This document shows positions 15,161 through 38,891 of a DNA stretch of 47,271 bases, piece after piece. The translations under genes were made by a program, and so were the position numbers. This stretch comes from Spirochaetales bacterium (GTDB lineage: Bacteria; Spirochaetota; Spirochaetia; Sphaerochaetales; Sphaerochaetaceae), in contig JAAZAT010000041.1 in assembly GCA_012514185.1 (NCBI GenBank), positions 1 through 47,271 on the forward strand, read 5' to 3'. Below the pieces are notes generated by a model. The model saw nothing but the letters and a program-made list of their open reading frames with translations, was not told where the DNA came from and made no database searches. How positions within the stretch are numbered: position 1 is the first letter of the stretch; each line of letters begins with the position of its first letter.

Positions 15161-16765
15161 TCAACTCGTCAGGCCCAGTGAGGAGGCGATGAAGAGGCTG
15201 AATATCGGGTGCGGCCTGTTCGGACGGCTCTTGAACTCCGGATGGTACTGCACCCCTACAAAGAAGGGATGACCGGTAAGCTCGATGGCTTCAACCAGTG
15301 TTCCATCAGGGCTTGTTCCGCTGATGACCAAACCCTTGTCGACCAGGTCCTGGCGGAAGGTGTTGTTGAACTCGTAGCGGTGGCGGTGCCGCTCGGCGAT
15401 ACTATGCTGGTTCTTATATGCTGTATGCAATCTTGTGTTCTCCGACACCACGCATGGATAGGTGCCCAGCCTCATCGTTCCGCCCTTGGGAATATTTCCC
15501 CGCTGGTCGGGCATCAGGGCGATGACCGGGTGCTGTGAATCAGGCTTGAACTCACTGGAATGGGCATCAGCATACCCGAGAACATTTCGGGCATATTCAA
15601 TGACGGCAATCTGCATGCCCAGGCAAATTCCCAGGTAGGGAATCTTGTGCTCCCTGGCATACCGGGCGGCAAGAATCTTGCCTTCGATGCCGCGGTCGCC
15701 GAAGCCGCCGGGAACCAAAATCCCATCCGCCTTGCAAAGGAGGTCGTGCACAGATTGTTCAGTCACCAGCTCACTGTCGATCCAATCGATGGTTACTTTG
15801 GCACCGAGAGCCCATGATGCATGCTTCAGTGCCTCCATGACTGAAAGGTAGGCATCGTGCAGCTGGATATACTTGCCGACCAAGGCGATGCGTACCTGTT
15901 TTTTGGCTGCTTTGATGGTTCTGAGCATCGCTTCCCATTCGGTAAGGTCGGGCTCTTGTGTGTCAAGGTTGAGTTCTCGGCAGACGATGGTGTCCAGCTG
16001 TTCTGCATGGAGCATCAAGGGAGCCTCATAGAGAACCTCCACAGTCTTGTTTTCGATGACGCAGTCACGCTTCACATTGCAAAAGAGGGCGATTTTATCC
16101 TTGATGCTCTGCTCCAGCGGCTCATCGGAGCGGGTGACGATGATATCGGGGAATATGCCCGATGCCATCAGCTCCTTGACCGAGTGCTGGGTGGGCTTGC
16201 TCTTGTGCTCGGCGCTGCTCTTCAGATACGGGACCAAGGTTACGTGGATGAACAGGCAGTTGGCAGGGCCGACCTCGTGGCCGATCTGCCTGATAGCCTC
16301 CAAGAATGGTTGGCTCTCGATATCGCCGGTGGTTCCCCCGATTTCGGTGATCACCACATCGGCCTTGGTCTTTTCGGCCAACGAGTAGATGGCATCCTTG
16401 ATCTCGCCGGTGACATGCGGGATGATCTGGACCGTCGAGCCCAAGTATGCACCGCTTCTCTCCTTGGTCAGGACGTTCCAGTACACCCTGCCGCTGGTAA
16501 GGTTGGAGAACTTGTTCAAATCCTCGTCGATGAACCGCTCGTAGTGTCCGAGATCGAGGTCGGTCTCCGACCCATCCTCGGTGACGAACACCTCCCCGTG
16601 CTGGTAGGGGCTCATCGTTCCCGGGTCGACATTCATATAGGGATCGAGTTTCTGCGCCGCGATTTTCAGTCCCCTTGCCTTGAGCAGCCTTCCCAAGGAT
16701 GCTGCCGTTATTCCCTTGCCAAGGCCCGAAACGACCCCGCCGGTCACAAATACATGTTTGGCCAT
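15161..16765 (-). CDS. pyrG: CTP synthase (glutamine-hydrolysing)
   Basis: 534-residue enzyme that converts UTP to CTP using ATP and the amide nitrogen of glutamine. The N-terminal amidoligase domain starts [17 protein letters not shown] with the nucleotide loop, followed by [21 protein letters not shown] and [11 protein letters not shown]. The C-terminal class I amidotransferase domain shows VPGGFGDRG, the nucleophile Cys in YLGICLGMQ, and the His-Glu pair in [10 protein letters not shown]. The length is normal. The ATG at 16765 follows GGAGAGAG and begins the conserved domain. It is the last gene of the nitrogen operon, 11 nt after the ANTAR regulator, which fits its use of glutamine. Confidence 0.97.
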
Positions 16766-16776
16766 ACACTCTCTCC

Positions 16777-17346
16777 TCATAGATATGTCTTCAAAATCAG
16801 GGAAGCGACATCGTATCTGCTCTTGCGCAAATCCATCGCCTGTTTCTCTATATGTCTGTGCGCCTGCTTTTCGTCCATGCCAAGGTTCTCGATCAAAGCC
16901 CATTTTGCGCGGTCGATGAGCTTGATCTCCTCTATCTTGCGGTGGAGTTCCTCGTTCTCATTGTGCATGGCGGACAGGCGCTTGCGCATGGAAAACCCAA
17001 GACTCAAGGCTTGGAAGAACATCTGACGGATGACCGGTTTGGAAACCACCAGAACGCCTTGGTCGCAATAAAGGGCCTGTTCCTGCTCAAAATACTCGGC
17101 TTTCACCACCAGGATCGAGGTGGCGAGACTTTGCTGGGTCACCATGACCGCCAGCTCCTCACCCGACTCATCAAGCAAAGGAGCATTGACAATGACCAAA
17201 TCCAGCTCGGAATCGAGAATGATGCGTCTGGCTTGGGAAGCGCTCTGGCATGTGGTGATGTCGACCTGCCTCTCATGCTCGACGATGAGGGCACAGAGGG
17301 ATTCACATCCCTTCTCGGTCGATGAAACCACCAGAACACGCATCAC
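16777..17346 (-). CDS. ANTAR-domain antiterminator with a phosphorylation-dead receiver
   Basis: 189-residue protein. Residues 2-120 form a receiver-like domain. The usual acidic pair is replaced by Ser/Thr (VSST, residues 7-10), and the phosphoacceptor Asp is Asn54 (VIVNAPLL); only Lys103 (VSKP) is kept. A short coiled coil (about 122-143) leads to a C-terminal ANTAR three-helix domain ([20 protein letters not shown], then [14 protein letters not shown]). ANTAR domains bind hexaloop RNA hairpins and prevent terminator formation. The gene lies between glnA and pyrG. Matching hairpins sit in the leaders of its own operon, glnN and asnB. The inducing signal is probably not a kinase; a partner protein or small ligand is inferred. 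Confidence 0.88.
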
Positions 17347-17354
17347 GCAACCTC

Positions 17355-18635
17355 CTAGGTAGTCAAGAAGTAGGGAAGACGGCTGGCCAGGTGCTTATCG
17401 CCGGCATCCTCGTACGAACGCCAGTCGGCGAGCTTGGCCTCCAGGAAATATTCAAGCAGCCGCTTGGGGACGATTGATGAGACAAACTCACTGTGCTTCG
17501 CCAGTTCGATTGCATCGAACAACGACTGGGGCAGGGTCTTCCCACTCTGTTTCTGATAAGCCGAACCCACATACTCCTCGGAAGGAATCATATGGTTCTG
17601 AATCCCTTCCAAGGATGCGTTGAGCAGTAGTGTGATGGCGAGGTAGGGATTGCAGGCAGGGTCGGCCGAGCGGACCTCGATTCTTCGATATTCAGGACTT
17701 GATTGTGGAAGCCTGATCAAAAGCGAACGGTTCGCCCGCCCCCAGCCGATGTAGCGGGGAGCCTCGAAGCAGCCTAGTCTCTCATAGGAGTTGACCAGAG
17801 GATTGAGGAAGAGGGAGATCTCATTGATGCGGTTCAGGATGCCGGCTGTCATCTGCTGCTCAAGCACCCTGTCCTGCCTGCCTTCCTGGGTGATGGAGAG
17901 ATTGATGTGCAGGCCGCTGCCGCTCTCCTGGGCCAAGGGCTTGGGCATGAACGAGGCAAACAACCCGCTTCGGTCGGCAATGGTTTTCACCACCGACTTG
18001 AAGGTGATGAAGTTATCAGCCGCTTCCAAGGGCGAACCGTATTTGAAGTCGATCTCGTGCTGGCCCGGACCCGATTCATGGTGGCTGCGCTCGGTATAGA
18101 AGCCCATCTGCTCGAGGGTCAGGCAGATTTCCCGCCTGACGTTCTCCCCCTTGTCCAAGGGAGCGACATCGAGATAGGAGCCTCTGTCCATCGGCTGGAA
18201 CGTGGGATGCCCGTTTTCATCCAGTTTAAAGAGATAGAACTCGCATTCGGGTCCCACACCGAACTGATACCCCTGCAGGGCGGCTTTCTGCACTGTCTCT
18301 GCAAGCAGGGATCTTCCGTCTCCCTCGAAAGGAGTTCCATCGGGGCGCTTGATGGAGCAGAAGAAGCGAACCACCCGGCCCTGGGCCGGCCTCCAAGGGA
18401 GGATTGAGAGGGTGGATGCGTCGGGAAACAGGAGCAAATCGCTCTCATCGACCTGCAGAAAACCCTTTACCGCCGATGCATCGAAGGAGATGCCGGTGGT
18501 AAAAGCCCGATCGAGTTCATCAGCGGAAATGGAAATATTCTTGATCTGGCCGAAGATATCACAGAAAACAAGGCGTACAAACCGCACATCCTGTTCCTTG
18601 ATGAAGCTCATCACTTCGCTATGGGTAGTGGTCAT
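17355..18635 (-). CDS. glnA: Glutamine synthetase, type I
   Basis: 426-residue ATP-dependent ammonia ligase making glutamine from glutamate. Metal and substrate residues are present: GPECEFYLF, HHESGPGQHEIDF, the ATP-site block AQESGSGLHINLS, NRSLLIRLPQ and RRIEVRSADPACNPYLA. The latch region is FDASAVKGF. The glutamate flap, NSYERLGCFEAP, is one residue shorter than the usual NSYKRLVPGYEAP. It is slightly shorter than typical 440-470-residue enzymes, and I see no adenylylation-type Tyr motif. The start at 18635 has a GGGAGG Shine-Dalgarno sequence. It lies 16 nt after the GXGXG subunit gene and 8 nt before the ANTAR gene. Confidence 0.93.
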   Translation of the reverse strand: MTTTHSEVMSFIKEQDVRFVRLVFCDIFGQIKNISISADELDRAFTTGISFDASAVKGFLQVDESDLLLFPDASTLSILPWRPAQGRVVRFFCSIKRPDGTPFEGDGRSLLAETVQKAALQGYQFGVGPECEFYLFKLDENGHPTFQPMDRGSYLDVAPLDKGENVRREICLTLEQMGFYTERSHHESGPGQHEIDFKYGSPLEAADNFITFKSVVKTIADRSGLFASFMPKPLAQESGSGLHINLSITQEGRQDRVLEQQMTAGILNRINEISLFLNPLVNSYERLGCFEAPRYIGWGRANRSLLIRLPQSSPEYRRIEVRSADPACNPYLAITLLLNASLEGIQNHMIPSEEYVGSAYQKQSGKTLPQSLFDAIELAKHSEFVSSIVPKRLLEYFLEAKLADWRSYEDAGDKHLASRLPYFLTT

Positions 18636-18651
18636 AGGAAACCTCCCTCTC

Positions 18652-19377
18652 TCAAACATGGGTGTATAACATCCGATAGGGTGCGGCAGAGTTTGCCTGC
18701 AGTACAAAGAAGTGAGAAGCAAGCAGCATCTGCTTGTCAAACGAAAAAATCGTACAATACTCGTCAAGGAGGCAGGAAAGCACTTGCTTGTCGCTGTCCA
18801 CGGCGTCACGGGCTGAGACCTGCTTGGGCAGGCTCACCGGCAGTGTATCACAGCGAAGATACATTGTTCCACCGTGCATACCCGTTCCGCAGAAATATCC
18901 TACCGGAGGCCTGCCATCCTGGTTGCGCCCCAGTACGATAATCGTCCCTCCCGCCTGGTACTCGCCCAGAAAACTACCCGCACGATCTCCGATGATCAGC
19001 AGGGGTTGTTTCTCCTGGTACGCTTTCATATGGATGCCGGAACGATAGCCGGAGCTATCGCGGATATAAATGCACCCCCCGCGCATTGCATACCCGGTCC
19101 CGTCGCCGCAACTGCCATGGATGACGATTTTCCCGTCATTCATGGTATCACCGGTTGCATCCTGGCCGTTGCCGTAGACGGTGATGGTGCCACCGTCGAG
19201 AAAGCATCCGAGTGCGTTGCCCGCCGTTCCCTTGATGAACAGGTGTTTGTCCATCAGCGCTGAACCGATATACCGCTGGCCGTTTGCCTGCTCTATGGTG
19301 ATTTGGTCGTCTTCCATGCTTCTGACGGCCTTGTTCAAGGCTTCGTACTCCATGAAGCCTGCGGTTATGTGTGTCAT
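18652..19377 (-). CDS. Glutamate synthase GXGXG-domain subunit
   Basis: 241-residue protein made mainly of the right-handed beta-helix GXGXG domain found at the C-terminus of the large glutamate synthase subunit and in FwdC/FmdC. Repeated Gly-rich turns are visible: GTAGNALGCFLDGG, YGNGQDATGDTMNDG, HGSCGDGTGYAMRGG and DRAGSFLGEYQAGG. In fused glutamate synthases this domain holds the enzyme core together between the amidotransferase and synthase sites. Here it is a separate gene. The ATG overlaps the preceding reductase stop (ATGA) and follows GGGAGGG. Confidence 0.88.
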   Translation of the reverse strand: MTHITAGFMEYEALNKAVRSMEDDQITIEQANGQRYIGSALMDKHLFIKGTAGNALGCFLDGGTITVYGNGQDATGDTMNDGKIVIHGSCGDGTGYAMRGGCIYIRDSSGYRSGIHMKAYQEKQPLLIIGDRAGSFLGEYQAGGTIIVLGRNQDGRPPVGYFCGTGMHGGTMYLRCDTLPVSLPKQVSARDAVDSDKQVLSCLLDEYCTIFSFDKQMLLASHFFVLQANSAAPYRMLYTHV

Positions 19378-20606
19378 ACGGGCCCTCCCAATTGCTGTTG
19401 CCGTACGCTCTTTGCGAAGGCCATCAAGAGAGGCTCCTCGCAAATCAGGTCGAAATTGAGCGAGTCAAGCTCGACTTTATTGCGGATCATTGCTGTATAG
19501 ATTCCCGATCTTTTGCCAGCTTCTCCGACCAGGATGCAACCGACCAGATGATTGTCCTTGACGAACAGGCGCTTGTACCCATCCTTGCAGGGTACCAAGT
19601 GGGATGTTCCTTCGTACCGCCCTACGGTGATCAGGTGCAGGCCCATTAGCGAAAGAGCGTTCATTGCGACAGCCTTGTCAAAGGAGGCTGTACCGCCGGC
19701 CATGTTGGTGCCGGCAGTCTCCCCTTGCAGGTACGCATTGGGAAGCAGGGCGAGTACTGTCTTGCGGCCGATTATCATCTCAGGACCTTCGGTGCAGTCG
19801 CCTGCAGCAAAGACATCTGCATCGCTGGTCCGTCCCCCCTCGTCGATGAGAATGCCGCGATTGACATCGAGGCCTGCCTCCAAGGCAATCTGTATATTCG
19901 GCTTTACCCCGACGGCAATGACCAGAAGATCGAAGCCGATGACAGTCCCGCTCTGCAACAGGGCTTCGTTGGGGGTACACTCGGCGATGCTGTCTCCTAA
20001 AAAGAAGCGAAGACCCTGCTTTTGGAGGTGAGTACGCACCTGTTCGGATGCAGCATCATCAAGCACACTCATCAGTACCCGGGGGGCGAGGTCCACCACA
20101 CTGACCGACTGCACCTTGTCGATGATCGCCTCGGCGCACTTGAGGCCGACCAGCCCCGCCCCCAGGATGAGGACGCGACTCTCCTTTCTCAGGTTGGATT
20201 CAAGGCGCTTGGCTTCATCGAGGGTAAGGAAGGTGAAGCGGTTCTTCACCTCCTCCAAGCCCTTGATTGGAGGAATGAAGGGTGAAGATCCAGTTGCCAG
20301 AAGCAGCTTGTCATACCAAAGCGATATCCCATTCTCAAGGCATACCGTCTTTTCCTCCCTGTCGATGCTCTGTGCACGCACCCCTCTCATGACTGTCACC
20401 TTGTTTTCTTCGTAGAAGGCCTCACTGCGATAAACCATGCGGTTTTCATCGGTTTTTCCCTGCAAGAGGTAGGAGATCAGGGGCCGGCTGTAGCACGGGT
20501 GGTCCTCTTCTCCGATGACCGTAATCGATCCCTCTGCATCAATGGCTCTGACGGCCTCGATGCAGGCGGTGCTCGCAATCGAATTTCCTATCATGACGTA
20601 GTGCAT
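19374..20606 (-). CDS. FAD-dependent NAD(P)H oxidoreductase (pyridine nucleotide-disulphide type)
   Basis: 410-residue flavoprotein. The N-terminal FAD fold is HYVMIGNSIASTACIEAV, a second Rossmann motif for NAD(P)H is LILGAGLVGLKCAEAI, and the FAD-binding Asp is in DVFAAGDCTEGPEM. It resembles rubredoxin/ferredoxin reductases and nitrite-reductase-type FAD domains. In this operon it probably passes electrons between NAD(P)H and the ferredoxin or glutamate synthase subunits. Direction and partner are inferred. The start at 20606 follows GAGGAG and lies 1 nt after the ferredoxin gene stop. Confidence 0.88.
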   Translation of the reverse strand: MHYVMIGNSIASTACIEAVRAIDAEGSITVIGEEDHPCYSRPLISYLLQGKTDENRMVYRSEAFYEENKVTVMRGVRAQSIDREEKTVCLENGISLWYDKLLLATGSSPFIPPIKGLEEVKNRFTFLTLDEAKRLESNLRKESRVLILGAGLVGLKCAEAIIDKVQSVSVVDLAPRVLMSVLDDAASEQVRTHLQKQGLRFFLGDSIAECTPNEALLQSGTVIGFDLLVIAVGVKPNIQIALEAGLDVNRGILIDEGGRTSDADVFAAGDCTEGPEMIIGRKTVLALLPNAYLQGETAGTNMAGGTASFDKAVAMNALSLMGLHLITVGRYEGTSHLVPCKDGYKRLFVKDNHLVGCILVGEAGKRSGIYTAMIRNKVELDSLNFDLICEEPLLMAFAKSVRQQQLGGPV

Positions 20607-20607
20607 A

Positions 20608-21036
20608 TCAACGCTCCTCAAAGACAATAGCCTTGTTCGGACAACCCTGGATGCAGGCGGGCTGTCCCTGCGAGTTGGTGGTGCAAAGCTCGCACTTCTG
20701 CATCACTCCTTCCCTGGCCGGCATCAAAGCCCCGTACGGGCAGGCCATGATGCAGGAGTAACAGAGAACACAGCGGCTCTGGTCGATGACAATCACCCCG
20801 TCCTTGCTGGTGATGGCCCCGGCGATGCAGCTTTTTATACAGAGCGGCTCGGTACAATGACGGCAATTGACTGCAAAGCTGATGGTACCCCGTTGCTCGA
20901 CGGTGATGCGGGCCTGTATCTGCTTGTCTTTCAGTGCCTTGACCATGTCCTGAATGCCTGAATTTGCATAGGCGCAGTAGTACTCACACAGATGACAGCC
21001 CAGACACCACATTTCATTGACGTAGATGCGTTTCAT
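20608..21036 (-). CDS. 4Fe-4S ferredoxin, HycB/CooF-like electron carrier
   Basis: 142-residue iron-sulphur protein with four cysteine clusters, as in HycB/CooF/DmsB-type carriers: CLGCHLCEYYC near the N-terminus, CRHCTEPLCIKSC, CVLCYSCIMACP, and C-terminal CELCTTNSQGQPACIQGCP. It is expected to hold up to four [4Fe-4S] centres and to act in the cytoplasm, as no export signal is present. Encoded between the FMN synthase subunit and the FAD reductase, it probably links them. It overlaps neither neighbour but is tightly packed. Confidence 0.9.
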   Translation of the reverse strand: MKRIYVNEMWCLGCHLCEYYCAYANSGIQDMVKALKDKQIQARITVEQRGTISFAVNCRHCTEPLCIKSCIAGAITSKDGVIVIDQSRCVLCYSCIMACPYGALMPAREGVMQKCELCTTNSQGQPACIQGCPNKAIVFEER

Positions 21037-21048
21037 GGTTTCATCCTC

Positions 21049-22554
21049 CTACTGGCCGGCATGGGCGATGCCCAGGATCTTGAGCTCGGTCTCATGCAAG
21101 GCGATACCCCGGAGCATCAGGCGGTTGCCCTTCAGGGCTTCGATGCTGTTGATGCCCATCCCGCCCATCATCTCCTTGATTTCGTGGTTCCAGGCGGTGA
21201 GAAGATTCACCAGATGTTGGCTTCCCACCTCGGGGTTCAATCGTTTGACCAGCTCGGGATTCTGCGTGGCGATGCCCCAGTTGCACTTGCCGCTGTGGCA
21301 TGTGCGGCACAGATGACAGCCGAGAGCGACCAAGGCGCTGGTGGCGATGTAGACTGCATCGGCTCCCAGGGCGATGGCCTTGATCACGTCGCTGCTGCTG
21401 CGGATCGAGCCTCCCACGACCAGGCTGACATTGCCCCTGATGCCTTCCTGCCTGAGGCGTTGGTCAACGCTGGCCAAGGCAAGCTCGATTGGAATGCCGA
21501 CATTGTCACGGATGCGGGCCGGGGCCGCTCCCGTGCCTCCCCGGAATCCATCGATGGCGATGATGTCCGCACCGCTGCGGGCGATGCCGCTGGCGATGGC
21601 CGAGATGTTGTGTACCGCCGCTACTTTTACAATGACCGGCTTCGTGTAGCGGGTCGCTTCCTTGAGGGCGTAGACCAGTTGCCTGAGGTCTTCGATCGAA
21701 TAGATGTCATGATGGGGAGCGGGACTTATCGCATCGGCATGGAGGGGAATCATGCGGGTGGCCGAGATATCCTCGCCGATTTTCGAGCCGGGCAGGTGTC
21801 CCCCGATACCCGGCTTGGCACCTTGTCCCATCTTTATCTCAATGGCTGCGCCGGCATTCAAATACTCGGGGTGCACGCCGAAGCGGCCCGAGGCAACTTG
21901 AACGATGGTATTCTTTCCATACTGATAGAAGTCCTTGTGCAGGCCCCCCTCGCCGGTGTTGTAGAAGGTCCCCAGTTCGCTGGCCGCCATGGCAAGACTC
22001 TTGTGGGCATTGTAGGAGATTGAGCCGTAGGACATGGCGCTGAACATGATGGGAATATCGAGTTTAAGTTGACCGGTTGTGCTGGTGATGATCCGTCCCT
22101 CTCCATCCCTGGTGATTTTTGCACTCTTCTTGCCCAGGTATGTCCGTGTTTCCATAGGCTCGCGCAGCGGGTCGATGGAAGGATTGGTGACTTGGCTTGC
22201 GTTGATCAGCATCTTGTCCCAGTACACCGGATACTCCTTGGGTGTTCCCATCGAGGCAAGCAGCACCCCTCCACTCTGGGCCTGCCGGTAGATATCCTCG
22301 ATCACCTCGGTTTTCCAGTTGGCATTCTCCTTGAATGTGTGGTCGGTCTTTACGATTTTCAGGGCCCGGGTGGGGCAGAGGGAGACGCATCGATGACAAT
22401 TGACGCACAGGCTCTCATCAGCGGTCATGCGCTTCTTGTCCTCATCGTAGTGATGCACCAAATTGGCACACTGCCGCTCACAGACCCTGCAGGCTATGCA
22501 CCTGTCCTGATTTCGGATGATCTCAAAGGGCGGATACAGATAGTTGATGCCCAT
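21049..22554 (-). CDS. Glutamate synthase FMN-binding domain protein with N-terminal ferredoxin domain
   Basis: 501-residue subunit. Residues 1-65 hold two [4Fe-4S] motifs (C19-x2-C22-x2-C25-x3-C29 and C50-x2-C53-x2-C56-x3-C60). The rest is the (beta/alpha)8 FMN synthase domain of glutamate synthase: FSAMSYGSISYNAHKSLAMA, GQGAKPGIGGHLPG, IDGFRGGTGAAPARIRDNVG and VGGSIRSSSDVIKAIALGAD. The cluster motif CHLCRTCHSGKCNWGIATQ is that of the [3Fe-4S] site. It reduces 2-oxoglutarate plus ammonia to glutamate. The start at 22554 follows GGAG and overlaps the amidotransferase gene by 32 nt, so the two are translationally coupled. Confidence 0.92.
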   Translation of the reverse strand: MGINYLYPPFEIIRNQDRCIACRVCERQCANLVHHYDEDKKRMTADESLCVNCHRCVSLCPTRALKIVKTDHTFKENANWKTEVIEDIYRQAQSGGVLLASMGTPKEYPVYWDKMLINASQVTNPSIDPLREPMETRTYLGKKSAKITRDGEGRIITSTTGQLKLDIPIMFSAMSYGSISYNAHKSLAMAASELGTFYNTGEGGLHKDFYQYGKNTIVQVASGRFGVHPEYLNAGAAIEIKMGQGAKPGIGGHLPGSKIGEDISATRMIPLHADAISPAPHHDIYSIEDLRQLVYALKEATRYTKPVIVKVAAVHNISAIASGIARSGADIIAIDGFRGGTGAAPARIRDNVGIPIELALASVDQRLRQEGIRGNVSLVVGGSIRSSSDVIKAIALGADAVYIATSALVALGCHLCRTCHSGKCNWGIATQNPELVKRLNPEVGSQHLVNLLTAWNHEIKEMMGGMGINSIEALKGNRLMLRGIALHETELKILGIAHAGQ

Positions 22555-23674
22555 GCTCTTCTCCTTCTTGCATGCTGTCCAAGGTGACGATGACCGCCTT
22601 TCCTCCGCTGGGGTACCAGAGCCGGTCCGGTTCGGGTTCAATGACCCTGATCGCCGCTTCCTCGCTGGCAAAGTACACCCGCCCCGCCTTCTCGGCGGCA
22701 ACCAGGCTGCGCAGCTTGAGCCGGTCGTTGAGGGCCATAAGCCCGCCCTTGAAGCCGAGGATGATCGAGAAAGGACCGGTGATGAGCATGCTTGCAAAGG
22801 TATTGCGCAGGTATGAATACTCTTCACGCTCCTTCGGCTCCTTCTGTTCGATTGTCGACCAGAAAGGGGCGGCCAGCACATGGGAGACCTCTTCGAGGGT
22901 GAGACCCATCCTGCGGTGCAGGTAGTCGATCATATAGGTGATGACCTCGGTATCGGTCTGCAGCGTGCAAGCGTAGCCGTACATCTCGATATACCGGCGA
23001 TTTGCGTCGTAGCTGGAGATCTCACCATTGTGCACCACGCTGTAGGATAGCAGGCTGAAAGGGTGGCTGCCGCCCCACCAACCAGGAGTGTTGGTGGGGT
23101 AGCGGCCGTGAACTGTCCAACTGTAGCCTTCGTATTCGTCGAGCATGTAAAACTCGCCTACATCCTCGGGAAATCCGACAGCCTTGAAGACACCCATATC
23201 CTTGCCGGAGGAGAAGACATACGCCCCCTCGATTTCCCGGTTGATGCGGATTACGCAGCGGGCGGTATACTCATCCTCGTCCAATTGGCTGAAGGAGAGC
23301 TTGGTGGGAAGCGCGGTGACAAAGTACCGCCAGATGAGGGGGACATCGGTGATGGCGGGGTGCTTCTTGGTGGGAATCTTGGAGAGGTTGATCAAATCGA
23401 AGTGTTCTTCCAGGAAAGTCTCACATGCCCGCTTGGCCTCAGATGAGTAATAGAAGATGTGCAAGGCGGTATAGTCCTTGTACTCGGGATAAATCCCATA
23501 TCCTGCAAATCCCCCTCCCAGTCCATTGCTCCGGTCGTGCATGACCGAGATGGAGGTGATGGCCTCTCGTGCGGTGAAGCGCTTTCCGCTTCTGTCGATG
23601 ATGCCGCTGATGGCGCATCCGCTGCTGTTGCGGAATGCTCCTTCCAAAGGAATTCGTTGATGACAGCCGTCCAT
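22523..23674 (-). CDS. Glutamate synthase amidotransferase subunit (class II glutaminase)
   Basis: 383-residue Ntn-type glutaminase that releases ammonia from glutamine for the FMN subunit. The probable nucleophile is Cys20 (GCAISGI). A 19-residue N-terminal propeptide must therefore be removed, as in fused glutamate synthases. Class II features follow: SNGLGGGFAGYGIYP, HGRYPTNTPGWWGGSHPF and SVVHNGEISSYDANRR. The ATG at 23674 has GGGGAG 6 nt upstream; the next in-frame ATG, at 23692, has none. It is the first gene of the operon, and a strong terminator lies between the promoter and this start. Confidence 0.9.
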   Translation of the reverse strand: MDGCHQRIPLEGAFRNSSGCAISGIIDRSGKRFTAREAITSISVMHDRSNGLGGGFAGYGIYPEYKDYTALHIFYYSSEAKRACETFLEEHFDLINLSKIPTKKHPAITDVPLIWRYFVTALPTKLSFSQLDEDEYTARCVIRINREIEGAYVFSSGKDMGVFKAVGFPEDVGEFYMLDEYEGYSWTVHGRYPTNTPGWWGGSHPFSLLSYSVVHNGEISSYDANRRYIEMYGYACTLQTDTEVITYMIDYLHRRMGLTLEEVSHVLAAPFWSTIEQKEPKEREEYSYLRNTFASMLITGPFSIILGFKGGLMALNDRLKLRSLVAAEKAGRVYFASEEAAIRVIEPEPDRLWYPSGGKAVIVTLDSMQEGEEHGHQLSVSAL

Positions 23675-23765
23675 GGTGTACTCCCCGGGCATGAAAAAAG
23701 GCGTCCACCATCGATAGCTTGCTGAGAAGCTACCCTTGGTGGACGCCTTTGTCCCTGTGGTAATT
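23675..23765 (-). promoter_or_regulatory. Attenuator leader of the glutamate synthase operon
   Basis: Predicted leader of about 91 nt. Near its 5' end a hairpin GGAC-[AAAGGC]-GTCC (plus-strand 23741-23754) can form, with loop A1 and G4 as required by ANTAR domains. Its loop and 3' arm are also the 5' arm of a terminator: 23750-23737 pairs perfectly with 23710 downward, followed by a run of six T (23699-23694). The two structures exclude each other. An inner 8-bp stem with loop CTCAGC caps the terminator. The Shine-Dalgarno sequence lies only a few nt after the terminator. Confidence 0.75.
23694..23750 (-). terminator. Leader terminator of the glutamate synthase operon
   Basis: A perfect 14-bp stem (23750-23737 with 23710-23697), extended by an inner hairpin, is followed by TTTTTT. 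It lies entirely upstream of the first start codon, so it is an attenuator. It can also end transcripts arriving from hipA. Confidence 0.85.
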
Positions 23766-23771: not shown

Positions 23772-23800
23772 AGTGTATCCAAGAATAGGGAGTTTGTCAC
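23772..23800 (-). promoter_or_regulatory. Promoter of the glutamate synthase operon
   Basis: On the minus strand, -35 GTGACA (23800-23795), a 17-nt spacer and -10 TACACT (23777-23772) predict +1 near 23765, about 11 nt before the ANTAR-type hairpin. Confidence 0.65.
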
Positions 23801-23834: not shown

Positions 23835-25079
23835 TTATAATGAAGTATGGAATGCCCGTTCCATGGCATCACATGCATCATTGCCGATACCGAAAGAGAG
23901 AGCAACGGCTCTCCATGTACGAACTTGATGCAATACATCCTGCACGATACCAAGAGCTTGTTTTTCATCAAGCATACAGTAAGAAGCTTGTTGAAGTGCA
24001 ACACCGTAATCAAGGTCATGTGAGAATCCATCCAAAGAAAGACTGAGTGAATATGTATCGTTTGAGGGATTCATGTCATATGCAGGGGAGAGTTTCCACC
24101 CTTTCTTGTCGAGTATCATGCCATGGTTTCTCAGATGGTCATCGGTATTGGAGACTGCAATGTTGAAGATGATTCTTCTAAATAATTGGGAGAGGTCTCT
24201 TTCCGGTTGCGACCCGAATTGCAGGAGAAATTCCACAATTTCCAGGTAACTTGCATTCTTATCGCCATCCTGCTTCCCTAATAAGGACAGTGCTGAAGCG
24301 AAATGGAGTCTTGTATTATTCGGTCCTCGGTCAAAACGCTTGGTAAGGAATGTGCTGCCTTGACTTGAGAAAGTTCGTAGAGTTGCTGGTGCTACTTCGA
24401 TAGCACAAGCCTTTGCAAGTTCGTGAACTACCATCTCCCAAGCACCTGTATTCCCTTGGTCATGCTTTGAAGGGAATTTTGCCAACCAAAGATTTCCCTG
24501 TTCATCTACTACTGTGGCTTTTGGGCGAGCTCCTCCGAGAGACGAGCCTGGAGCAATGAGTTGTAAAAGCCAGGTAACATCACTCTGCGGGACATCAAGT
24601 TCAAGCTGGGAGTATCCGAATTCCAAATCCCTTAATCTCGTCCACGGAGGTGTTGCCAGAGGAGTATCTTCCTTGAGAAAGGCTTCTTTTCCTGCACGCT
24701 TGAATCGAATAGCCCCCATGCGGGCGGCATCATGGACTCCGAGTAGGTAGTCACTCTCCTTGAGCACCTTGGGTTTGCGATTCTCTTGTTTTGCAAAAAG
24801 AGCTTCCCTTCTTTGCATCAACTGCCTTCCCCATCGATCAGGGCAGGAATCAAGAAACAAACCGAATCCCTGTTTCCCTGGATTTTGATATTGCCTTCCT
24901 GCATACAATTGAATATCCGGGTCGAGATGATACGTTTTTGCATAGGAGGATAGCCACTGGGAATCATATGAAAATGAGAATATTTCATTGGTTCTATCAT
25001 CTTGGATAAAAAGTGTACCTATTCGCTTTGGGCCGTTGAGGCCAATCCAGTCGGCATACACTTCTAGTCTTTGTTCCAT
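23835..25079 (-). CDS. hipA: HipA-family Ser/Thr kinase toxin
   Basis: 414-residue protein with the HipA N-terminal domain (about 1-110), the Gly-rich activation/ATP loop GSSLGGARPKA, and the kinase catalytic loop NTDDHLRNHG (Asn311-Gly318; probable catalytic Asp313) followed by AYDMNPS. HipA toxins phosphorylate glutamyl-tRNA synthetase or related targets and slow growth; the target here is not known. All key motifs are intact. The gene follows hipB by 4 nt with a GAGGTGATG Shine-Dalgarno sequence. Its base composition is visibly more AT-rich than the flanking nitrogen genes, suggesting acquisition. Confidence 0.92.
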   Translation of the reverse strand: MEQRLEVYADWIGLNGPKRIGTLFIQDDRTNEIFSFSYDSQWLSSYAKTYHLDPDIQLYAGRQYQNPGKQGFGLFLDSCPDRWGRQLMQRREALFAKQENRKPKVLKESDYLLGVHDAARMGAIRFKRAGKEAFLKEDTPLATPPWTRLRDLEFGYSQLELDVPQSDVTWLLQLIAPGSSLGGARPKATVVDEQGNLWLAKFPSKHDQGNTGAWEMVVHELAKACAIEVAPATLRTFSSQGSTFLTKRFDRGPNNTRLHFASALSLLGKQDGDKNASYLEIVEFLLQFGSQPERDLSQLFRRIIFNIAVSNTDDHLRNHGMILDKKGWKLSPAYDMNPSNDTYSLSLSLDGFSHDLDYGVALQQASYCMLDEKQALGIVQDVLHQVRTWRAVALSFGIGNDACDAMERAFHTSL

Positions 25080-25083
25080 GACA

Positions 25084-25555: not shown

Positions 25556-25585
25556 TTGACAGCAATCGGCTCTTGGGTGTACAAA
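25556..25585 (+). promoter_or_regulatory. Promoter of the type III glutamine synthetase gene
   Basis: A perfect -35 TTGACA (25556-25561), an 18-nt spacer and -10 TACAAA (25580-25585) predict +1 near 25592, immediately before the ANTAR-type hairpin. Between this promoter and hipB, about 125 nt of AT-rich DNA shows no gene. Confidence 0.65.
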
Positions 25586-25591: not shown

Positions 25592-25757
25592 TCAGCAAAG
25601 GCGCTGTAGTCCGTTATGGGCTACAGCGCCTTTCTCTTTTTCCGGCATATGCGTCGGAATTGGGTTGGTGGGCACCTCTTTTCTTGGCGGCCTGACGGTG
25701 ACAATGCCAAGAAAGGAGTGTGCCGAAAACCCGTTATCACACCAGAGGGGGCAGTGT
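25592..25757 (+). promoter_or_regulatory. Attenuator leader of glnN
   Basis: The leader starts with the hairpin CAGC-[AAAGGC]-GCTG (25593-25606). Its loop and 3' arm also form the 5' arm of the terminator. After the terminator, a second long hairpin (25671-25688 with 25706-25724) has a stem of about 17 bp with one bulge and a 17-nt loop, without a T-run. Its role is unknown. An AGAGGGGG Shine-Dalgarno sequence precedes the ATG at 25758. Confidence 0.75.
25597..25641 (+). terminator. Leader terminator of glnN
   Basis: A 13-nt perfect stem (25597-25609 with 25621-25633) with an 11-nt loop is followed by a T-rich tail (25631-25641). It lies upstream of the coding region and overlaps the hexaloop hairpin, so only one of the two can form. 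Confidence 0.85.
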
Positions 25758-27851
25758 ATGACAGAACGTGTTGACCAGTATTTCGGGTGCATGGTGTTCG
25801 GTGACAAGATGATGCGTGAATATCTAGCAAAGGACACCTATCGTGAGTTGAAGCAGACGATCCGGGAGGGCAAGGAACTCGACATTTCCATTGCCAATCA
25901 GGTGGCGCATGCCATGAAAGAGTGGGCGCTGAGCAAAGGTGCAACCCATTTCACCCACTGGTTCCAGCCCATGACGGGAATCACTGCTGAGAAACACGAG
26001 AGCTTCATCTCCCCTGCAAAGGACGGCTCGGCTTTGCTTGAGTTCAGCGGCAAGGAACTCATCAAGGGAGAGCCCGATGCCTCCTCCTTCCCCTCCGGCG
26101 GACTGAGGGCAACCTTCGAAGCCCGCGGATATACCGCCTGGGATCCCTCAAGCTATGCCTTCATCAAGGAGCATACCTTGTGCATCCCCACCGCCTTCTG
26201 TTCCTACAGCGGCGAGGTTCTGGACAAGAAAACCCCGCTGCTGCGTTCCATGGAGGTCATCAGCACCCAGGCCTTGAGAATTCTCAAGCTTTTCGGCAAG
26301 ACAGACGTGAAACGGGTGGTGACCACCGTCGGGCCGGAGCAGGAGTATTTTTTGATTGACAAGAGCCTCTATTTGAAACGCAAAGACCTGATTCATACCG
26401 GTCGAACCCTGCTGGGAGCACGACCCCCGAAAGGCCAGGAACTGGAAGACCACTACTTCGGCAACCTCAAGAGCCGGGTGTCGGCCTTCATGAGTGAACT
26501 GGATGAAGAGCTGTGGAAGCTCGGCATCCTGGCCAAGACCGAGCACAACGAGGTAGCTCCCAGCCAGCATGAGCTCGCCCCCATCTTCACCACCAGCAAC
26601 CTGGCAGTCGATCACAACCAGCTGACCATGGAAATGATGAAAAAGGTTGCCGACAAGCACGGGCTGGTCTGCCTGTTGCATGAGAAACCCTTTGCCGGGG
26701 TGAACGGTTCAGGCAAGCACAACAACTGGTCCATCTCCACCGACAGCGGAATCAACCTGTTGGAACCCGGGGACAATCCGAAGGACAATGCCCAGTTCCT
26801 GCTCTTCCTGGTTGCTGTGATTGCGGCGGTGGATGAGTATCAGGACCTGCTCAGGGTATCGGTTGCAAGTGCCGGAAACGACCATCGCCTCGGAGCCAAT
26901 GAAGCGCCTCCGGCCATCGTTTCCATGTTCCTCGGCCAGGAGCTCACCAACATTCTCGACTCATTGGCCGACGGGACCGACTGTCCCTGCAAAGCACCCT
27001 CCTCGATGCTGCTGGGGGTGAACCTGTTGCCTCCGCTTCCCAAGGACAGCACCGACCGCAACCGCACCAGTCCGTTCGCCTTTACCGGCAACAAGTTTGA
27101 GTTCAGGATGCTGGGCTCCTCTTTCTCTGTAAGCGGTCCGAACTTTGTGCTCAATACGATCATAGCCGACAAGCTCTCCCAGTTTGCCGATCAGTTGGAG
27201 AAAGAGACCGACTTTGCCTGTGCTCTTTCCAAGCTGGTCAAGGAGACCTATCAGAAGCATCGCAGGATCGTGTTCAATGGAAACAACTATGCCCAGGCAT
27301 GGGTCGAGGAAGCCCAAAGGCGGGGGTTGTCGAACCTGAAGTCCACCGTTGATGCCCTTCCGACCTTCATCAGCAAGAAGAGCATCGCTCTCTTCTCCAA
27401 GTTCGGCGTACTCAGCGAGACCGAAATCCACAGCCGCTACGAGATTGTTTTGGAGAACTACTGCAAGACGATCAACATCGAGGCTCTTACCATGACCGAT
27501 ATGGTTCGCAAGCAGATTCTTCCCGCCCTCAGTGCATTCAGCGGCGAGTTGGCCCGTTCCGCACAGGATAAGCTGACCCTGGTTCCCTCCCTTTCGCTTT
27601 CCTACGAGAAGTCCACCGTCGCATCCCTGAGCAGGCTCTCCGACAGCCTCGAGGCGGCTGTGACCGAGCTTGAGAAGCGCGTGGTGGACGCACGCATGGT
27701 CGGTGAAGTGCTTCAGGCAGGCAGGTACTATCACGACCAGGTGCTCCCTGCGATGGCGGAAGTGCGTTCAATCAGCGACTCCGCCGAGCTCTTGATGGGT
27801 GAAACCTATTATCCGATACCTACGTACGAGCAGCTGCTGTACTCCGTATAA
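25758..27851 (+). CDS. glnN: Glutamine synthetase, type III
   Basis: 697-residue enzyme of the large GSIII class found in Bacteroides, cyanobacteria and some spirochaetes. Landmarks include YFGCMVFGDKMMREYL at the start, ATHFTHWFQPMTGITAEKHESF, GPEQEYFLID (metal-binding Glu), KTEHNEVAPSQHELAPIF, GVNGSGKHNNWSIST (ATP/ammonia site) and GNDHRLGANEAPPAIVS, followed by FRMLGSS. It makes glutamine from glutamate, ammonia and ATP as a dodecamer. The ATG at 25758 follows AGAGGGGG; upstream in-frame ATGs lie inside leader hairpins. A type I enzyme is encoded nearby, so the organism has two unrelated classes within 10 kb. Confidence 0.96.
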   Translation: MTERVDQYFGCMVFGDKMMREYLAKDTYRELKQTIREGKELDISIANQVAHAMKEWALSKGATHFTHWFQPMTGITAEKHESFISPAKDGSALLEFSGKELIKGEPDASSFPSGGLRATFEARGYTAWDPSSYAFIKEHTLCIPTAFCSYSGEVLDKKTPLLRSMEVISTQALRILKLFGKTDVKRVVTTVGPEQEYFLIDKSLYLKRKDLIHTGRTLLGARPPKGQELEDHYFGNLKSRVSAFMSELDEELWKLGILAKTEHNEVAPSQHELAPIFTTSNLAVDHNQLTMEMMKKVADKHGLVCLLHEKPFAGVNGSGKHNNWSISTDSGINLLEPGDNPKDNAQFLLFLVAVIAAVDEYQDLLRVSVASAGNDHRLGANEAPPAIVSMFLGQELTNILDSLADGTDCPCKAPSSMLLGVNLLPPLPKDSTDRNRTSPFAFTGNKFEFRMLGSSFSVSGPNFVLNTIIADKLSQFADQLEKETDFACALSKLVKETYQKHRRIVFNGNNYAQAWVEEAQRRGLSNLKSTVDALPTFISKKSIALFSKFGVLSETEIHSRYEIVLENYCKTINIEALTMTDMVRKQILPALSAFSGELARSAQDKLTLVPSLSLSYEKSTVASLSRLSDSLEAAVTELEKRVVDARMVGEVLQAGRYYHDQVLPAMAEVRSISDSAELLMGETYYPIPTYEQLLYSV

Positions 27852-30887: not shown

Positions 30888-30896
30888 GCTGATTCC

Positions 30897-30925: not shown

Positions 30926-30948
30926 GAAAATACCAGAAGGAGGTGCCT

Positions 30949-31967: not shown

Positions 31968-31993
31968 CAATCCTTCAGTGTTTGTTGTAGACT
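31964..31993 (+). promoter_or_regulatory. Predicted leaderless promoter of the acetyltransferase gene
   Basis: -35 GTGACA (31964-31969), an 18-nt spacer and -10 TAGACT (31988-31993) end 8 nt before the ATG at 32001. No Shine-Dalgarno sequence is present. Confidence 0.5.
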
Positions 31994-32000
31994 GTGAAGC

Positions 32001-32687: not shown

Positions 32688-32726
32688 TATTTATACATAA
32701 TTTTTTGAAATTATATGCATGGATAC

Positions 32727-32754
32727 TGGTCAAGCGACGGATTATCTGTATAAT
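32727..32754 (+). promoter_or_regulatory. Promoter of the arginine operon
   Basis: A perfect -10 TATAAT (32749-32754) lies 16 nt after a -35-like TGGTCA (32727-32732). AT-rich DNA lies upstream at 32687-32715; I see no convincing ArgR box pair. Confidence 0.6.
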
Positions 32755-32784
32755 TATACCACTATCGTATACACGGAGGTTGGT

Positions 32785-33825: not shown

Positions 33826-33834
33826 GAGGCTTGT

Positions 33835-35942: not shown

Positions 35943-37135
35943 GTATGCAGACAAGCATCGCAGCGGGCAAACAGTATTTGCTGGACACCTATGCCCAAGT
36001 GCCGGTGGTCTTTGATCGAGGCGAAGGCATGTACCTGTTCGATGAAGAGGGAAACAAGTACTTGGACTTTGTCGGCGGAATCGCCGTCAACGCCCTGGGG
36101 TACCATGATGCAGGCCTCTCTGCCGCTATCGCCGAGGTAGTCGAAAAAGGACTGCTTCACTGCTCCAATCTCTATTACAACACCCAAGCCATTGCGGCTG
36201 CCAAGGGCCTGTGCACCCTCTCAGGCATGGACCGGGTTTTTTTCTGCAACAGCGGAGCCGAGGCGAATGAAGCCGCCCTCAAGCTTGCCCGCAAGTTCGG
36301 GCACAAGAGCAGCCCGGCCCGTACCGATATCATTTCGATGGTCCACTCCTTCCATGGGCGCACCTATGGTGCCATCACAGCGACCGGACAGGACAAGTAT
36401 CATGTGAACTTCGACCCGCTTCCCGAGGGATTCAGTTATGCCGAGTTCAACAATTTGGAGAGTGTGAAGGCCTTGGTCAGTGAAAAGACCTGTGCCATCA
36501 TTGTCGAACCCATCCAGGGTGAGGGCGGCATCGTACCTGCAACCGTGGAGTTCCTCCAGGGCCTGCGTGAACTATGCGACCAGAAAGACATCCTGCTCAT
36601 CTATGACGAGGTGCAGTGCGGCATGGGGCGCAGCGGAAAGCCGTTTGCCTATCAGGTCTATCAGGTGAAACCCGACATCCTGACCACCGCCAAGGCGCTT
36701 GCCGGGGGAATCCCCGCCGGTGCCATGCTCAGCTGTGATAAAGCAAACGAGATCTTCACCCCCGGTGACCATGCCTCCACGTTCGGCGGCAATGCCCTTG
36801 CGATGGCCGGCGTCAACGAGATGGTCCGCCGCCTGATGGACAGTGAGTTCACCGACCATGTGCAGCAGATGGGTTCCTACCTGCGGGAGAAGCTCGTACA
36901 GCTTGCGTCTCTGTATCCCAATCTCTGCGGCGAGGTTCGGGGGCTGGGCTTGATCAATGGCTTGGTATTGACGGTTCCGCCGCGCAAGGTCGTTGATGCA
37001 TGTTTTGAACGCGGACTTTTGGTTGCCAGCGCCGGCTACGATGTGCTTCGCTTCGTGCCTCCCTTGATAGTAAGCCAACAAGACATCGACAATGCATTGG
37101 CAATCGTCGAACAGGCTCTTGCATCTTTGCTCTGA
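35939..37135 (+). CDS. argD: Acetylornithine aminotransferase
   Basis: 398-residue class III PLP aminotransferase converting N-acetylglutamate semialdehyde to N-acetylornithine with glutamate. Motifs are YLDFVGGIAVNALGY, FCNSGAEANEAALKLARK, the Asp in YDEVQCGMGRSG that binds PLP, and the PLP Lys in TTAKALAGGIPAGAM. The ATG at 35939 overlaps the argB stop (ATGA) and follows AAGGAG. Last gene of the arginine operon; the asnB leader terminator lies just downstream. Confidence 0.95.
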   Translation: MSMQTSIAAGKQYLLDTYAQVPVVFDRGEGMYLFDEEGNKYLDFVGGIAVNALGYHDAGLSAAIAEVVEKGLLHCSNLYYNTQAIAAAKGLCTLSGMDRVFFCNSGAEANEAALKLARKFGHKSSPARTDIISMVHSFHGRTYGAITATGQDKYHVNFDPLPEGFSYAEFNNLESVKALVSEKTCAIIVEPIQGEGGIVPATVEFLQGLRELCDQKDILLIYDEVQCGMGRSGKPFAYQVYQVKPDILTTAKALAGGIPAGAMLSCDKANEIFTPGDHASTFGGNALAMAGVNEMVRRLMDSEFTDHVQQMGSYLREKLVQLASLYPNLCGEVRGLGLINGLVLTVPPRKVVDACFERGLLVASAGYDVLRFVPPLIVSQQDIDNALAIVEQALASLL

Positions 37136-37147
37136 AGCGTCTAGTAT
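37119..37147 (+). promoter_or_regulatory. Promoter of asnB
   Basis: -35 TTGCAT (37119-37124), a 17-nt spacer and -10 TAGTAT (37142-37147) straddle the end of argD and predict +1 near 37154, at the ANTAR-type hairpin. Confidence 0.6.
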
Positions 37148-37153
37148 CGACCC

Positions 37154-37214
37154 AAGAACAAAGACGTTCCTAACCCTGACGGGAGAGGAGCGTCTTTTTT
37201 TTTGGAGGTAGAGG
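37154..37214 (+). promoter_or_regulatory. Attenuator leader of asnB
   Basis: The short leader opens with the hairpin GAAC-[AAAGAC]-GTTC (37156-37169); loop A1 and G4 match the ANTAR rule. Loop and 3' arm are also part of the terminator's 5' arm, so the two are alternatives. A GGAGG Shine-Dalgarno sequence comes right after the T-run. Confidence 0.75.
37160..37203 (+). terminator. Leader terminator of asnB
   Basis: The stem AAAGACG (37160-37166) with CGTCTTT (37191-37197) extends by five more pairs, a 2x2 internal loop and CCC/GGG, with nine consecutive T at 37195-37203. It ends argD read-through and acts as an attenuator of asnB. Confidence 0.88.
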
Positions 37215-38891
37215 ATGTGTGGATTTGTAGGCATGTTTGACATTCGCTCGTATACGCCCCAGTTGCGCTCCCGTGTTTTGGAGATGTCCCGAAAGATACG
37301 CCACCGGGGTCCGGACTGGTCCGGAGTGTTTGCATCAGAGAAGGCGGTTATCAGCCATGAACGGCTGGCCATCGTCGACCCGTTGTCAGGAGGTCAACCG
37401 CTGTATAGCAAAGACAGGAATATTGTGTTGGCCGTGAACGGGGAGATCTACAATCATCAGCAGATTCGCAAGCGTTATGCACATACCTATGAGTTTCAAA
37501 CCCAAAGTGACTGCGAGGTCATTCTTGCCCTCTATCAGGACAAGGGCCCCGACTTTTTGGAAGAGTTGAACGGCATTTTTGCCTTTGCACTCTATGACCA
37601 AACAAAGGATGTGTTTCTCATCGCCCGCGACCATATCGGCATCATCCCCCTGTATCAAGGGTGGGACGATGAGGGGCGTTATTATGTTGCCAGCGAGCTG
37701 AAGGCCTTGGAAGGCGTCTGTTCCTCCATCGAACTCTTTCTGCCCGGCCAGTACTACTACAGCCCTGAAGGAAAACCAAAGCAGTGGTACTTTCGGAAGT
37801 GGACCAGCTACGATGTGGTCAAGGATCAGGGAGGCTGCATTCAAGAGGTCAAGAGCGCCCTGGAAGCGGCGGTAAAACGCCAGCTGATGAGCGATGTACC
37901 GTACGGAGTGCTGCTCTCCGGAGGGCTGGACAGCTCGATCATCGCCGCCATCACCGCAAAGTACGCCCAAAAGCGGGTTGAGAGCGACGACCGGGAAACT
38001 GCATGGTGGCCCCGGCTTCACTCCTTCGCCATCGGCCTGGAGGGTTCGCCGGACCTGAAGGCTGCCCGCATAGCAGCCGATTTTCTGGGTACGGTGCATC
38101 ACGAAGTGCATTTCACCATCCAGGAGGCCCTCGATGCCCTCTCTGATGTCATCTATCACTTGGAAACCAGCGATATCACCACCGTCAGGGCGGCCACCCC
38201 GATGTATCTGTTGGGGCGGGTGATCAAGTCGATGGGAATCAAGATGGTGCTCAGCGGGGAGGGAAGCGATGAGATCTTCGGCGGTTACCTCTACTTTCAC
38301 AAGGCCCCGAACGCCCGTGAATTCCATGAGGAGACGGTGCGCAAGCTCTCCAAGCTTCATCTCTATGACTGCCTCAGGGCAAACAAGTCGCTTGCAGCCT
38401 GGGGTGTCGAAGGCCGTGTCCCCTTCTTGGACAAGGAGTTCATGGATGTGGCGATGAATCTCAATCCGGATTTGAAGCTTTGTCCCATCGTCGGAGAGAA
38501 CAAGCGCATCGAGAAATGGCTGCTCAGGGAGGCCTTCAAGGAGGAGCTGCCGCCTGAAATCACTTGGAGGCAGAAGGAGCAGTTCAGCGACGGTGTCGGG
38601 TACAACTGGATTGATACACTCAAGCGCATGACCTCGAATCTGGTCACCGATGAACAGTTCGCCCTGGCTGCCAAACGCTTTCCCATCCATACCCCTGCCA
38701 CCAAGGAGGAGTACTACTATCGATGCTTGTTTGCTTCCCATTACCCCAGCGAAAGTGCGGCACGTTGTGTACCGCGGGAGGACTCGGTCGCCTGTTCAAC
38801 AGCCAAGGCGCTGGAGTGGGACGAAGCTTTCAGGAAGATGAACGAGCCTAGCGGAAGAGCTGTAAGCGGGGTGCATGAAGCGGCCTACTAA
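37215..38891 (+). CDS. asnB: Asparagine synthetase B (glutamine-hydrolysing)
   Basis: 558-residue enzyme making asparagine from aspartate with glutamine nitrogen and ATP. The class II glutaminase domain begins at the nucleophile Cys2 (MCGFVGMFD), with the Arg/Asn substrate loop near LAIVDPLSGGQPLY and VNGEIYN. The synthetase domain has the PP-loop LLSGGLDSSIIAA and GEGSDEIFGGYLYF. The length matches E. coli AsnB. GGAGG precedes the ATG. Its last four bases overlap the convergent cadD-like gene. Confidence 0.97.
   Translation: MCGFVGMFDIRSYTPQLRSRVLEMSRKIRHRGPDWSGVFASEKAVISHERLAIVDPLSGGQPLYSKDRNIVLAVNGEIYNHQQIRKRYAHTYEFQTQSDCEVILALYQDKGPDFLEELNGIFAFALYDQTKDVFLIARDHIGIIPLYQGWDDEGRYYVASELKALEGVCSSIELFLPGQYYYSPEGKPKQWYFRKWTSYDVVKDQGGCIQEVKSALEAAVKRQLMSDVPYGVLLSGGLDSSIIAAITAKYAQKRVESDDRETAWWPRLHSFAIGLEGSPDLKAARIAADFLGTVHHEVHFTIQEALDALSDVIYHLETSDITTVRAATPMYLLGRVIKSMGIKMVLSGEGSDEIFGGYLYFHKAPNAREFHEETVRKLSKLHLYDCLRANKSLAAWGVEGRVPFLDKEFMDVAMNLNPDLKLCPIVGENKRIEKWLLREAFKEELPPEITWRQKEQFSDGVGYNWIDTLKRMTSNLVTDEQFALAAKRFPIHTPATKEEYYYRCLFASHYPSESAARCVPREDSVACSTAKALEWDEAFRKMNEPSGRAVSGVHEAAY

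Follow-up and report, generated by a model that had tools for sequence, protein, structure and literature searches.

The gene for the ANTAR protein NitR is linked to glnA, and AmiR, the ANTAR protein of the Pseudomonas amiE leader, is not driven by phosphorylation. In solvent-producing clostridia, NitR is an antiterminator of the glutamine synthetase (GS) and glutamate synthase (GOGAT) genes under nitrogen limitation (Stutz 2007, via PMC6316151 and PMC4676874), and ANTAR regulons of Desulfotomaculum have dual-hairpin RNAs in front of nitrogen genes, those for glutamate synthase among them (Ramesh 2012, PMC3369931). EutV and NasR targets carry two hexaloops, both needed for full binding, and changing the length of the eutP linker, longer or shorter, reduces induction (PMC3369931). 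NasR binds a lone P2 hairpin at ~12 µM, and systematic evolution of ligands by exponential enrichment with NasR gives a C:G closing pair, A1 and G4 (PMC7496416). One published search for ANTAR targets demands both hairpins, with a linker of 2-25 nt (PMC8164766). The EutV structure paper redefines the binding unit as one hexaloop, with P1 as a recruiting hairpin, and leaves the reach of single hexaloops as a question (PMC8934654). Here we analyse a 47,271-nt stretch of DNA from a Spirochaetales bacterium (contig JAAZAT010000041.1 of assembly GCA_012514185.1; hereafter the window), in which such hairpins precede the glutamate synthase (glt) operon, glnN and asnB. The glt operon also encodes an ANTAR protein and the CTP synthase PyrG. 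The sequence evidence gives good support to a regulon in which ANTAR controls the synthesis of glutamate, glutamine and asparagine, and the three leaders are very probably transcription attenuators read by the one ANTAR protein through a single 5'-terminal hexaloop. Computation shows the anatomy of the leaders, the mutual exclusion of the two folds, covariation, co-occurrence with ANTAR, the targets and the pseudo-receiver of the protein.

Each of the three leaders carries a hairpin of the form NNNC-AAAGRC-GNNN that overlaps an intrinsic terminator. This shared architecture had been proposed in an earlier reading of the window (the original prediction), and its coordinates and pairing were borne out. 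On the minus strand, the glt leader contains the hairpin GGAC-AAAGGC-GTCC (ggacAAAGGCgtcc, 23754-23741), a promoter (GTGACA-17-TACACT, 23772..23800) and a terminator (23697..23750). On the plus strand, the corresponding elements of the glnN leader are CAGC-AAAGGC-GCTG (cagcAAAGGCgctg, 25593-25606), TTGACA-18-TACAAA (25556..25585) and a terminator at 25597..25633, and those of the asnB leader are GAAC-AAAGAC-GTTC (gaacAAAGACgttc, 37156-37169), TTGCAT-17-TAGTAT (37119..37147) and a terminator at 37160..37197. A promoter had been predicted in every leader. This held for glt and glnN; the asnB promoter matches the consensus poorly, yet it is kept in the genus, with TTGCA[AT]-17-TANNAT at a constant distance of 8 nt from the stem in 17/17 distinct genus sequences. 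All three hexaloops have A1 and G4, a C:G closing pair and a stem of at least 3 bp, features that were observed and not selected for.

In each leader the 5' arm of the terminator starts at loop A1, and the terminator comprises 14 (glt), 17 (glnN) or 12 (asnB) pairs. Because the base of the terminator 5' arm is built from the hexaloop AAAGRC plus the small hairpin's 3' arm, the two folds are mutually exclusive in all three leaders. Fold energies are -39.8, -30.1 and -25.0 kcal/mol for the glt, glnN and asnB terminators, compared to -5.4, -4.4 and -2.6 kcal/mol for the small hairpins alone, and folding z-scores for the leaders are -9.65, -8.97 and -5.35. Given this difference in stability, the terminator should win unless the small hairpin is held.

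How specific is the element within its own genome (2.76 Mb in 315 contigs, assembly completeness 86%)? The bare motif CAAAGRCG occurs 5 times in the window versus 3.3 expected, and hence is neither rare nor significant alone. The stricter pattern CAAAGRCGN{12,42}CGYCTTT has three matches in the genome, all at the glt, glnN and asnB leaders, compared to one for a reversed-pattern control. It also matches in 44 of 60 genomes (this one and 59 relatives), often at control level, and is therefore no regulon finder beyond this genus. We then used a covariance model, R1, built from 51 of 65 leader sequences after removal by hand of some near-duplicates and deviating ones. At E<=0.01, R1 matches the three leaders and no other place in the genome; as these leaders went into the model, the informative part is that nothing further was found. 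A search of this kind had been proposed with the original prediction, and R1 hits in this genome, its relatives and the phylum sit mostly with nitrogen genes. An Rfam scan of the window returned a single tRNA and matched no other RNA family.

Two lines of evidence bear on the number of hexaloops. First, promoters with at least 10 of 12 consensus bases precede 50 of 76 leaders, versus ~2 in shuffled sequence. For the 63 leaders with promoters scoring at least 9, the gap between the -10 element and the stem has a median of 11 nt and is 7-12 nt in 49. A promoter so close to the stem usually leaves room for one hairpin, at the 5' end of the RNA: the gap is below 19 nt in 58/63 leaders and in the window's three (17, 7 and 8 nt for glt, glnN and asnB), which is too short to accommodate a linker and another hairpin once transcription has started. 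Second, P1-like upstream hexaloops were sought in the window's three leaders and none was found; across 69 leaders there are 3, versus 4.9 expected from upstream sequence shuffled so as to preserve base composition only, and thus no enrichment. These leaders might still be canonical dual-hexaloop targets if transcription started further upstream, or if a divergent P1 or a loop other than A..G had been missed. Well-studied ANTAR targets do have two hairpins (PMC3369931, PMC8164766), and 5 of the 63 leaders, with gaps of at least 19 nt, have the room. Set against the gap lengths and the lack of enrichment, we consider this explanation improbable. No pair of hairpins separated by a 2-25 nt linker was found in the window's three leaders, and the leaders studied here, unlike the targets of EutV, NasR and AmiR, appear to do without P1. 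The original prediction had overlooked the absence of a second hexaloop; its broader claim, an ANTAR regulon over glt, glnN, asnB and pyrG, drew support from specificity, co-occurrence, covariation, contact residues and the nitrogen-related targets.

AAAG..CTTT is a common terminator base, and this, together with the ordinary frequency of CAAAGRCG in the window, raises the possibility that strong terminators yield the hairpin as a by-product of their A-tract and stem, with attenuation constitutive or otherwise driven. To avoid circularity, we collected terminators without any stem criterion, obtaining 533 that precede open reading frames (ORFs) in 81 sequences (80 ANTAR loci, described below, and the window). 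At the terminator base, an A..G hexamer is flanked by a 4-bp stem in 61 of 218 cases, compared to 25 of 923 when six further loop classes are pooled (Fisher P = 4e-28; the loci are related, and one terminator can enter several classes). We further examined set A2, 53 distinct spirochaete and clostridial sequences with the loop AANG[AG][CTA] and closing C and G. In this set, A1, A2, G4 and the C:G pair are imposed, loop positions 3, 5 and 6 are free, and stem pairs 2-4 are unselected. Positions 2, 3 and 4 are nonetheless paired in 52/53, 53/53 and 50/53 sequences, with several pair types. Overall, 98.1% of cells are paired versus 73.6% after shuffling, and the covariation score is 0.734 versus 0.268 (0.03-0.20 for slid versions). 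In the glt leader, for example, the stem changes with compensation between lineages, from GGAC/GTCC in Sphaerochaeta to GAAC/GTTC in many clostridia and AAAC/GTTT in genome G273. The original prediction had argued that terminator A-tracts do not suffice to explain the flanking stems. On the strength of the loop selectivity at terminator bases we rejected the by-product explanation, against which the covarying pairs and the presence of ANTAR in 12/12 RNA-positive genomes (below) also speak, and we regard it as highly improbable. An inverted repeat directly 3' of the promoter could also suggest a DNA operator near +1, bound by a repressor or activator. This reading is very unlikely and was likewise rejected, as the loop occurs in sense orientation by 64 to 1, changes in the arms are compensated around an asymmetric loop that is conserved, and the element overlaps the terminator in the leaders studied.

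Across the 60 genomes, 18 of 22 glnN, 19 of 21 asnB and 20 of 21 glt leaders examined have the hairpin, this genome included. Eight of 30 glnN loci were left out of these counts (the partial L044, and L046-L052, scanned separately), as were 9 of 30 loci each for asnB and glt, which were weaker or other-family matches. In these leaders the flanks of the motif have diverged, and the 14 hairpin bases are invariant except at loop positions 5 and 6; R1 matches within the genus are confined to the three known leaders. Several of the misses have recognisable circumstances. The glnN leader of G028 has the loop AATGGC, the glt leader of G035 reads gaaacAAGGACgtttt, and asnB of G028 sits 94 nt behind glnN. 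For two further glnN misses (G031, G054) and one asnB miss (G029), the genome has no ANTAR match. Other arrangements of asnB, which could equally bring asparagine synthesis into the regulon, were also seen, directly behind glnN in G028 (L120) and 294 nt behind the ANTAR gene in L179. A second type III glutamine synthetase (~52-57% identical) occurs in 19 of 26 genus genomes and was not found in this one.

R1 matches and the ANTAR protein go together in these genomes: 20 have both, 37 neither, 2 the RNA alone and 1 the protein alone. In the two RNA-alone genomes (G010, G024), the operon leaves the contig before the ANTAR position, and in the protein-alone genome (G059) the match spans residues 30-137, outside the ANTAR part. 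Of nine glnN leaders taken from spirochaetes that lack ANTAR, none showed such an element in a terminator scan, a negative that is not absolute because the same script missed three glnN leaders (L029, L039, L040) whose hairpins a direct scan shows; R1 had no match in those nine genomes either.

A scan of 247 genomes of the phylum, with filters stricter than elsewhere (they recovered 2 of the window's 3 leaders), gave the same association. The RNA was found in 12 genomes and ANTAR in 19, and all 12 are among the 19; that is, the RNA is present in 0 of 228 ANTAR-less genomes, and ANTAR in 12 of 12 RNA-positive ones (P = 6e-16). As far as the genome labels tell, only one of the 12 (G000) contributed sequences to R1. 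The 16 places matched precede genes for the glt amidotransferase (3), gltB (3), carA (2), pyrG (2), and asnB, gltD, glnA, purC and nadE (one each), the remaining one lying before an ornithine-cyclodeaminase/tyramine-oxidase-B-like gene. Some of these leaders are far from the ANTAR gene, in G304 by no less than 0.8 Mb even if circularity is assumed, which implies action in trans. The gltB leaders of three spirochaetes of family f24 (L290, L291, L292, near 1500) have the loop GAAGGC.

To see what such leaders serve, we turned to 80 ANTAR loci, mostly clostridial. As these were collected via the ANTAR protein, they are informative about targets, and it is the phylum scan that shows dependence on ANTAR. 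Leaders precede glnN (22) and glt (16; both counts include the window) and glnA (6), and further targets are asnA, amtB, gdhA, purC, guaA, pyrG and asnB. Asparagine synthesis is represented by asnA in clostridia and by asnB in Sphaerochaeta, a Peptococcaceae metagenome-assembled genome (L144) and Pygmaiobacter (L281). A separate hexaloop leader for pyrG is seen in G045, G157 and L175. For 38 of the 86 leaders listed (83 from the 80 loci and the window's three), the downstream ORF resembles no window protein or there is none. Family scans of 21 of these identified 18 nitrogen genes, the others being a WbuX amidotransferase (L176), a ChlD-like protein (L180) and one without family (L153). Overlapping loci identified two more, L131 as L256 and the minus-strand leader of L176 as L258, that is, asnA. 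Several of the remaining leaders, with short ORFs or none, are probably chance matches. Within the loci, glnA lies no more than 300 nt upstream of the ANTAR gene in 71 of the 76 with enough upstream sequence, and pyrG lies downstream in 8 of 77 by strict count, or in 16 of 80 within 300 nt when overlaps are included.

We also ran R1 on 20 whole genomes of these loci, chosen by hand. Matches were seen in 19 of them, at 39 places; because most of these genomes gave leaders to R1, this is partly by construction. Thirty of the places were followed, and 26 precede nitrogen genes, a few of which were identified via overlapping loci. In Sedimentibacter saalensis (the genome of L116), a gene for a Dpp/Opp-like peptide-binding protein stands behind the same leader (L262). 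The amtB leader of Niameybacter (L273 1495-1600, in the genome of L131) consists of two single-hexaloop attenuators in series, each with a terminator.

The ANTAR protein (P0001; 16777..17346, minus strand) is NitR-like, with a pseudo-receiver. Its place in the glt operon, as originally predicted, was upheld by a Pfam ANTAR match with E = 7.9e-16, and no other ANTAR domain turned up in the genome. An AlphaFold2 model (predicted local distance difference test score 94) has the order receiver domain, coiled coil, ANTAR, with a long helix at 107-155 and two ANTAR helices. The best match in the PDB is EutV (template modelling score 0.73-0.79); Rv1626 and AmiR are also close, the AmiR structure 1qo0 taking ranks 5-6. 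Equivalents of EutV K149, E160, Y164 and M172 are K148, E159, H163 and M171, each present in 80/80 homologues (matching assumes an offset of 2 in PDB chain numbering, itself inferred). The receiver lacks both features of EutV-type response regulators, the phospho-accepting Asp and the acidic pocket. Asn54 replaces the Asp, with N in 71/80 and D in 5/80 homologues, the former share being biased upward because one of two scan patterns included this Asn; Ser stands at position 8 in 68/80. With the phospho-Asp and acidic pair missing, phosphorylation is an unlikely signal, and the receiver probably responds to a ligand or a protein partner instead. Since glnA is directly upstream and GS controls TnrA in Bacillus (PMC6316151), GS would by analogy be the best candidate sensor partner.

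Taken together, these data suggest the following mechanism, in which we infer the transcription start, binding, antitermination and signal. RNA polymerase would start a few nucleotides 5' of the hairpin, whose loop, A1-N-N-G4-R-Y, is closed by C:G. An active ANTAR dimer would grip this hairpin, so that the terminator could not form next to the U-run, and glt-glnA-ANTAR-pyrG, glnN and asnB would be transcribed; with the dimer inactive, the far more stable terminator would form. Expression would rise when nitrogen is short, as has been reported for NitR.

Several observations weigh against such a single-hexaloop mechanism. EutV and NasR need both hairpins in published work, so that a single hairpin might not suffice here unless the present protein behaves differently, and EutV Arg142 is not kept, being Ile141 here and I, M, L, V or T across the 80 homologues. 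The 4-bp stems are unchanged within Sphaerochaeta: the compensatory changes that were predicted for relatives keeping ANTAR appear between genera and phyla and not inside the genus, where static stems make the compensation test uninformative. G035 has the ANTAR gene, yet its examined glnN (L042) is without the element, and the ANTAR-positive genome G078 (that of L179) has no R1 match. In the phylum scan, 7 of the 19 ANTAR-positive genomes likewise lack a match, although with the stricter filters and one leader of our own missed these are no firm negatives. The family f24 gltB leaders match R1 with G in place of A at loop position 1. Finally, 4 of the 30 R1 places followed (L262, L270, L271, L282) are not clearly before a nitrogen gene.

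As for the genes themselves, the glt operon (minus strand) runs in the order glt amidotransferase, FMN domain, Fe-S, oxidoreductase, GXGXG, glnA, ANTAR, pyrG. Family matches identify the split glutamate synthase genes (18652..23674). The best model for glnA (17355..18809) is type I glutamine synthetase, scoring under that model's cut-off. The last gene of the operon, 3' of the ANTAR gene, is pyrG (15161..16765; NCBIfam PyrG, E = 2e-241), with its start set from the family match, which begins at ORF residue 47. On the plus strand, glnN (25665..27851; Pfam GSIII_N, E = 5e-81) encodes a type III glutamine synthetase whose true start is probably near 25758, because full-length matches in relatives start at residues 18-38, and asnB (37215..38891; NCBIfam, E = 1.6e-269) encodes a glutamine-hydrolysing asparagine synthase. 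Between the divergent glt and glnN promoters lie a HipA/YjjJ-like gene and a helix-turn-helix gene (23835-25395, minus strand). The distance between the two leaders is 1.8 kb here, 0.14-0.62 kb in 8 other genus genomes and ~1-2.2 kb in 7.

A regulon of this kind is already known from NitR and from Ramesh 2012. What is new, as far as our searches show, is the design with one hexaloop at the 5' end, the targets in asparagine synthesis and amide transfer, and the occurrence in spirochaetes. We found no published leader motif for NitR and, in the open-access literature, no report of single-hexaloop antitermination and none linking ANTAR, antitermination and asparagine synthetase. The two published searches for ANTAR targets that we consulted demand two hairpins (PMC3369931, PMC8164766). 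The leaders described here are natural single-hexaloop cases common to spirochaetes and clostridia, and how far single hexaloops act therefore becomes directly testable. They also suggest that a single regulator coordinates numerous enzymes with ammonia or the amide nitrogen of glutamine as substrate. More tentatively, the leaders could form a cross-phylum class, with a single 5' hexaloop, no recruitment hairpin, a pseudo-receiver that senses GS or P-II in place of phosphorylation, and an amide-nitrogen regulon. We think this possible, if somewhat unlikely; if true, the regulon joins ammonia uptake and assimilation to the synthesis of asparagine, CTP, carbamoyl phosphate, GMP, purines and NAD.

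How, then, does the system compare with those described? With AmiR and the amiE leader it shares a His at the position that stacks on G4 and a structural match, but its neighbours are glnA and pyrG, with no AmiC-like partner, and its targets and leader layout differ. It resembles EutV and the eut leaders of Enterococcus in fold, in the A1/G4 hexaloop and in the P2-type overlap with the terminator (PMC3369931, PMC8934654); by the same accounts, EutV is phosphorylated and uses two hexaloops 5-12 nt apart, whereas here there are a pseudo-receiver and one hexaloop. As in the Desulfotomaculum regulons, nitrogen genes stand behind ANTAR RNAs that overlap terminators, although those regulons were found with a dual-hairpin model, which excluded single-hairpin leaders. 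A close parallel is with NitR, in the ANTAR protein, the GS/GOGAT targets and the linkage to glnA, and beyond NitR the present system has a single 5'-terminal hexaloop, targets in asparagine synthesis and nucleotide amidation, and spirochaete hosts.

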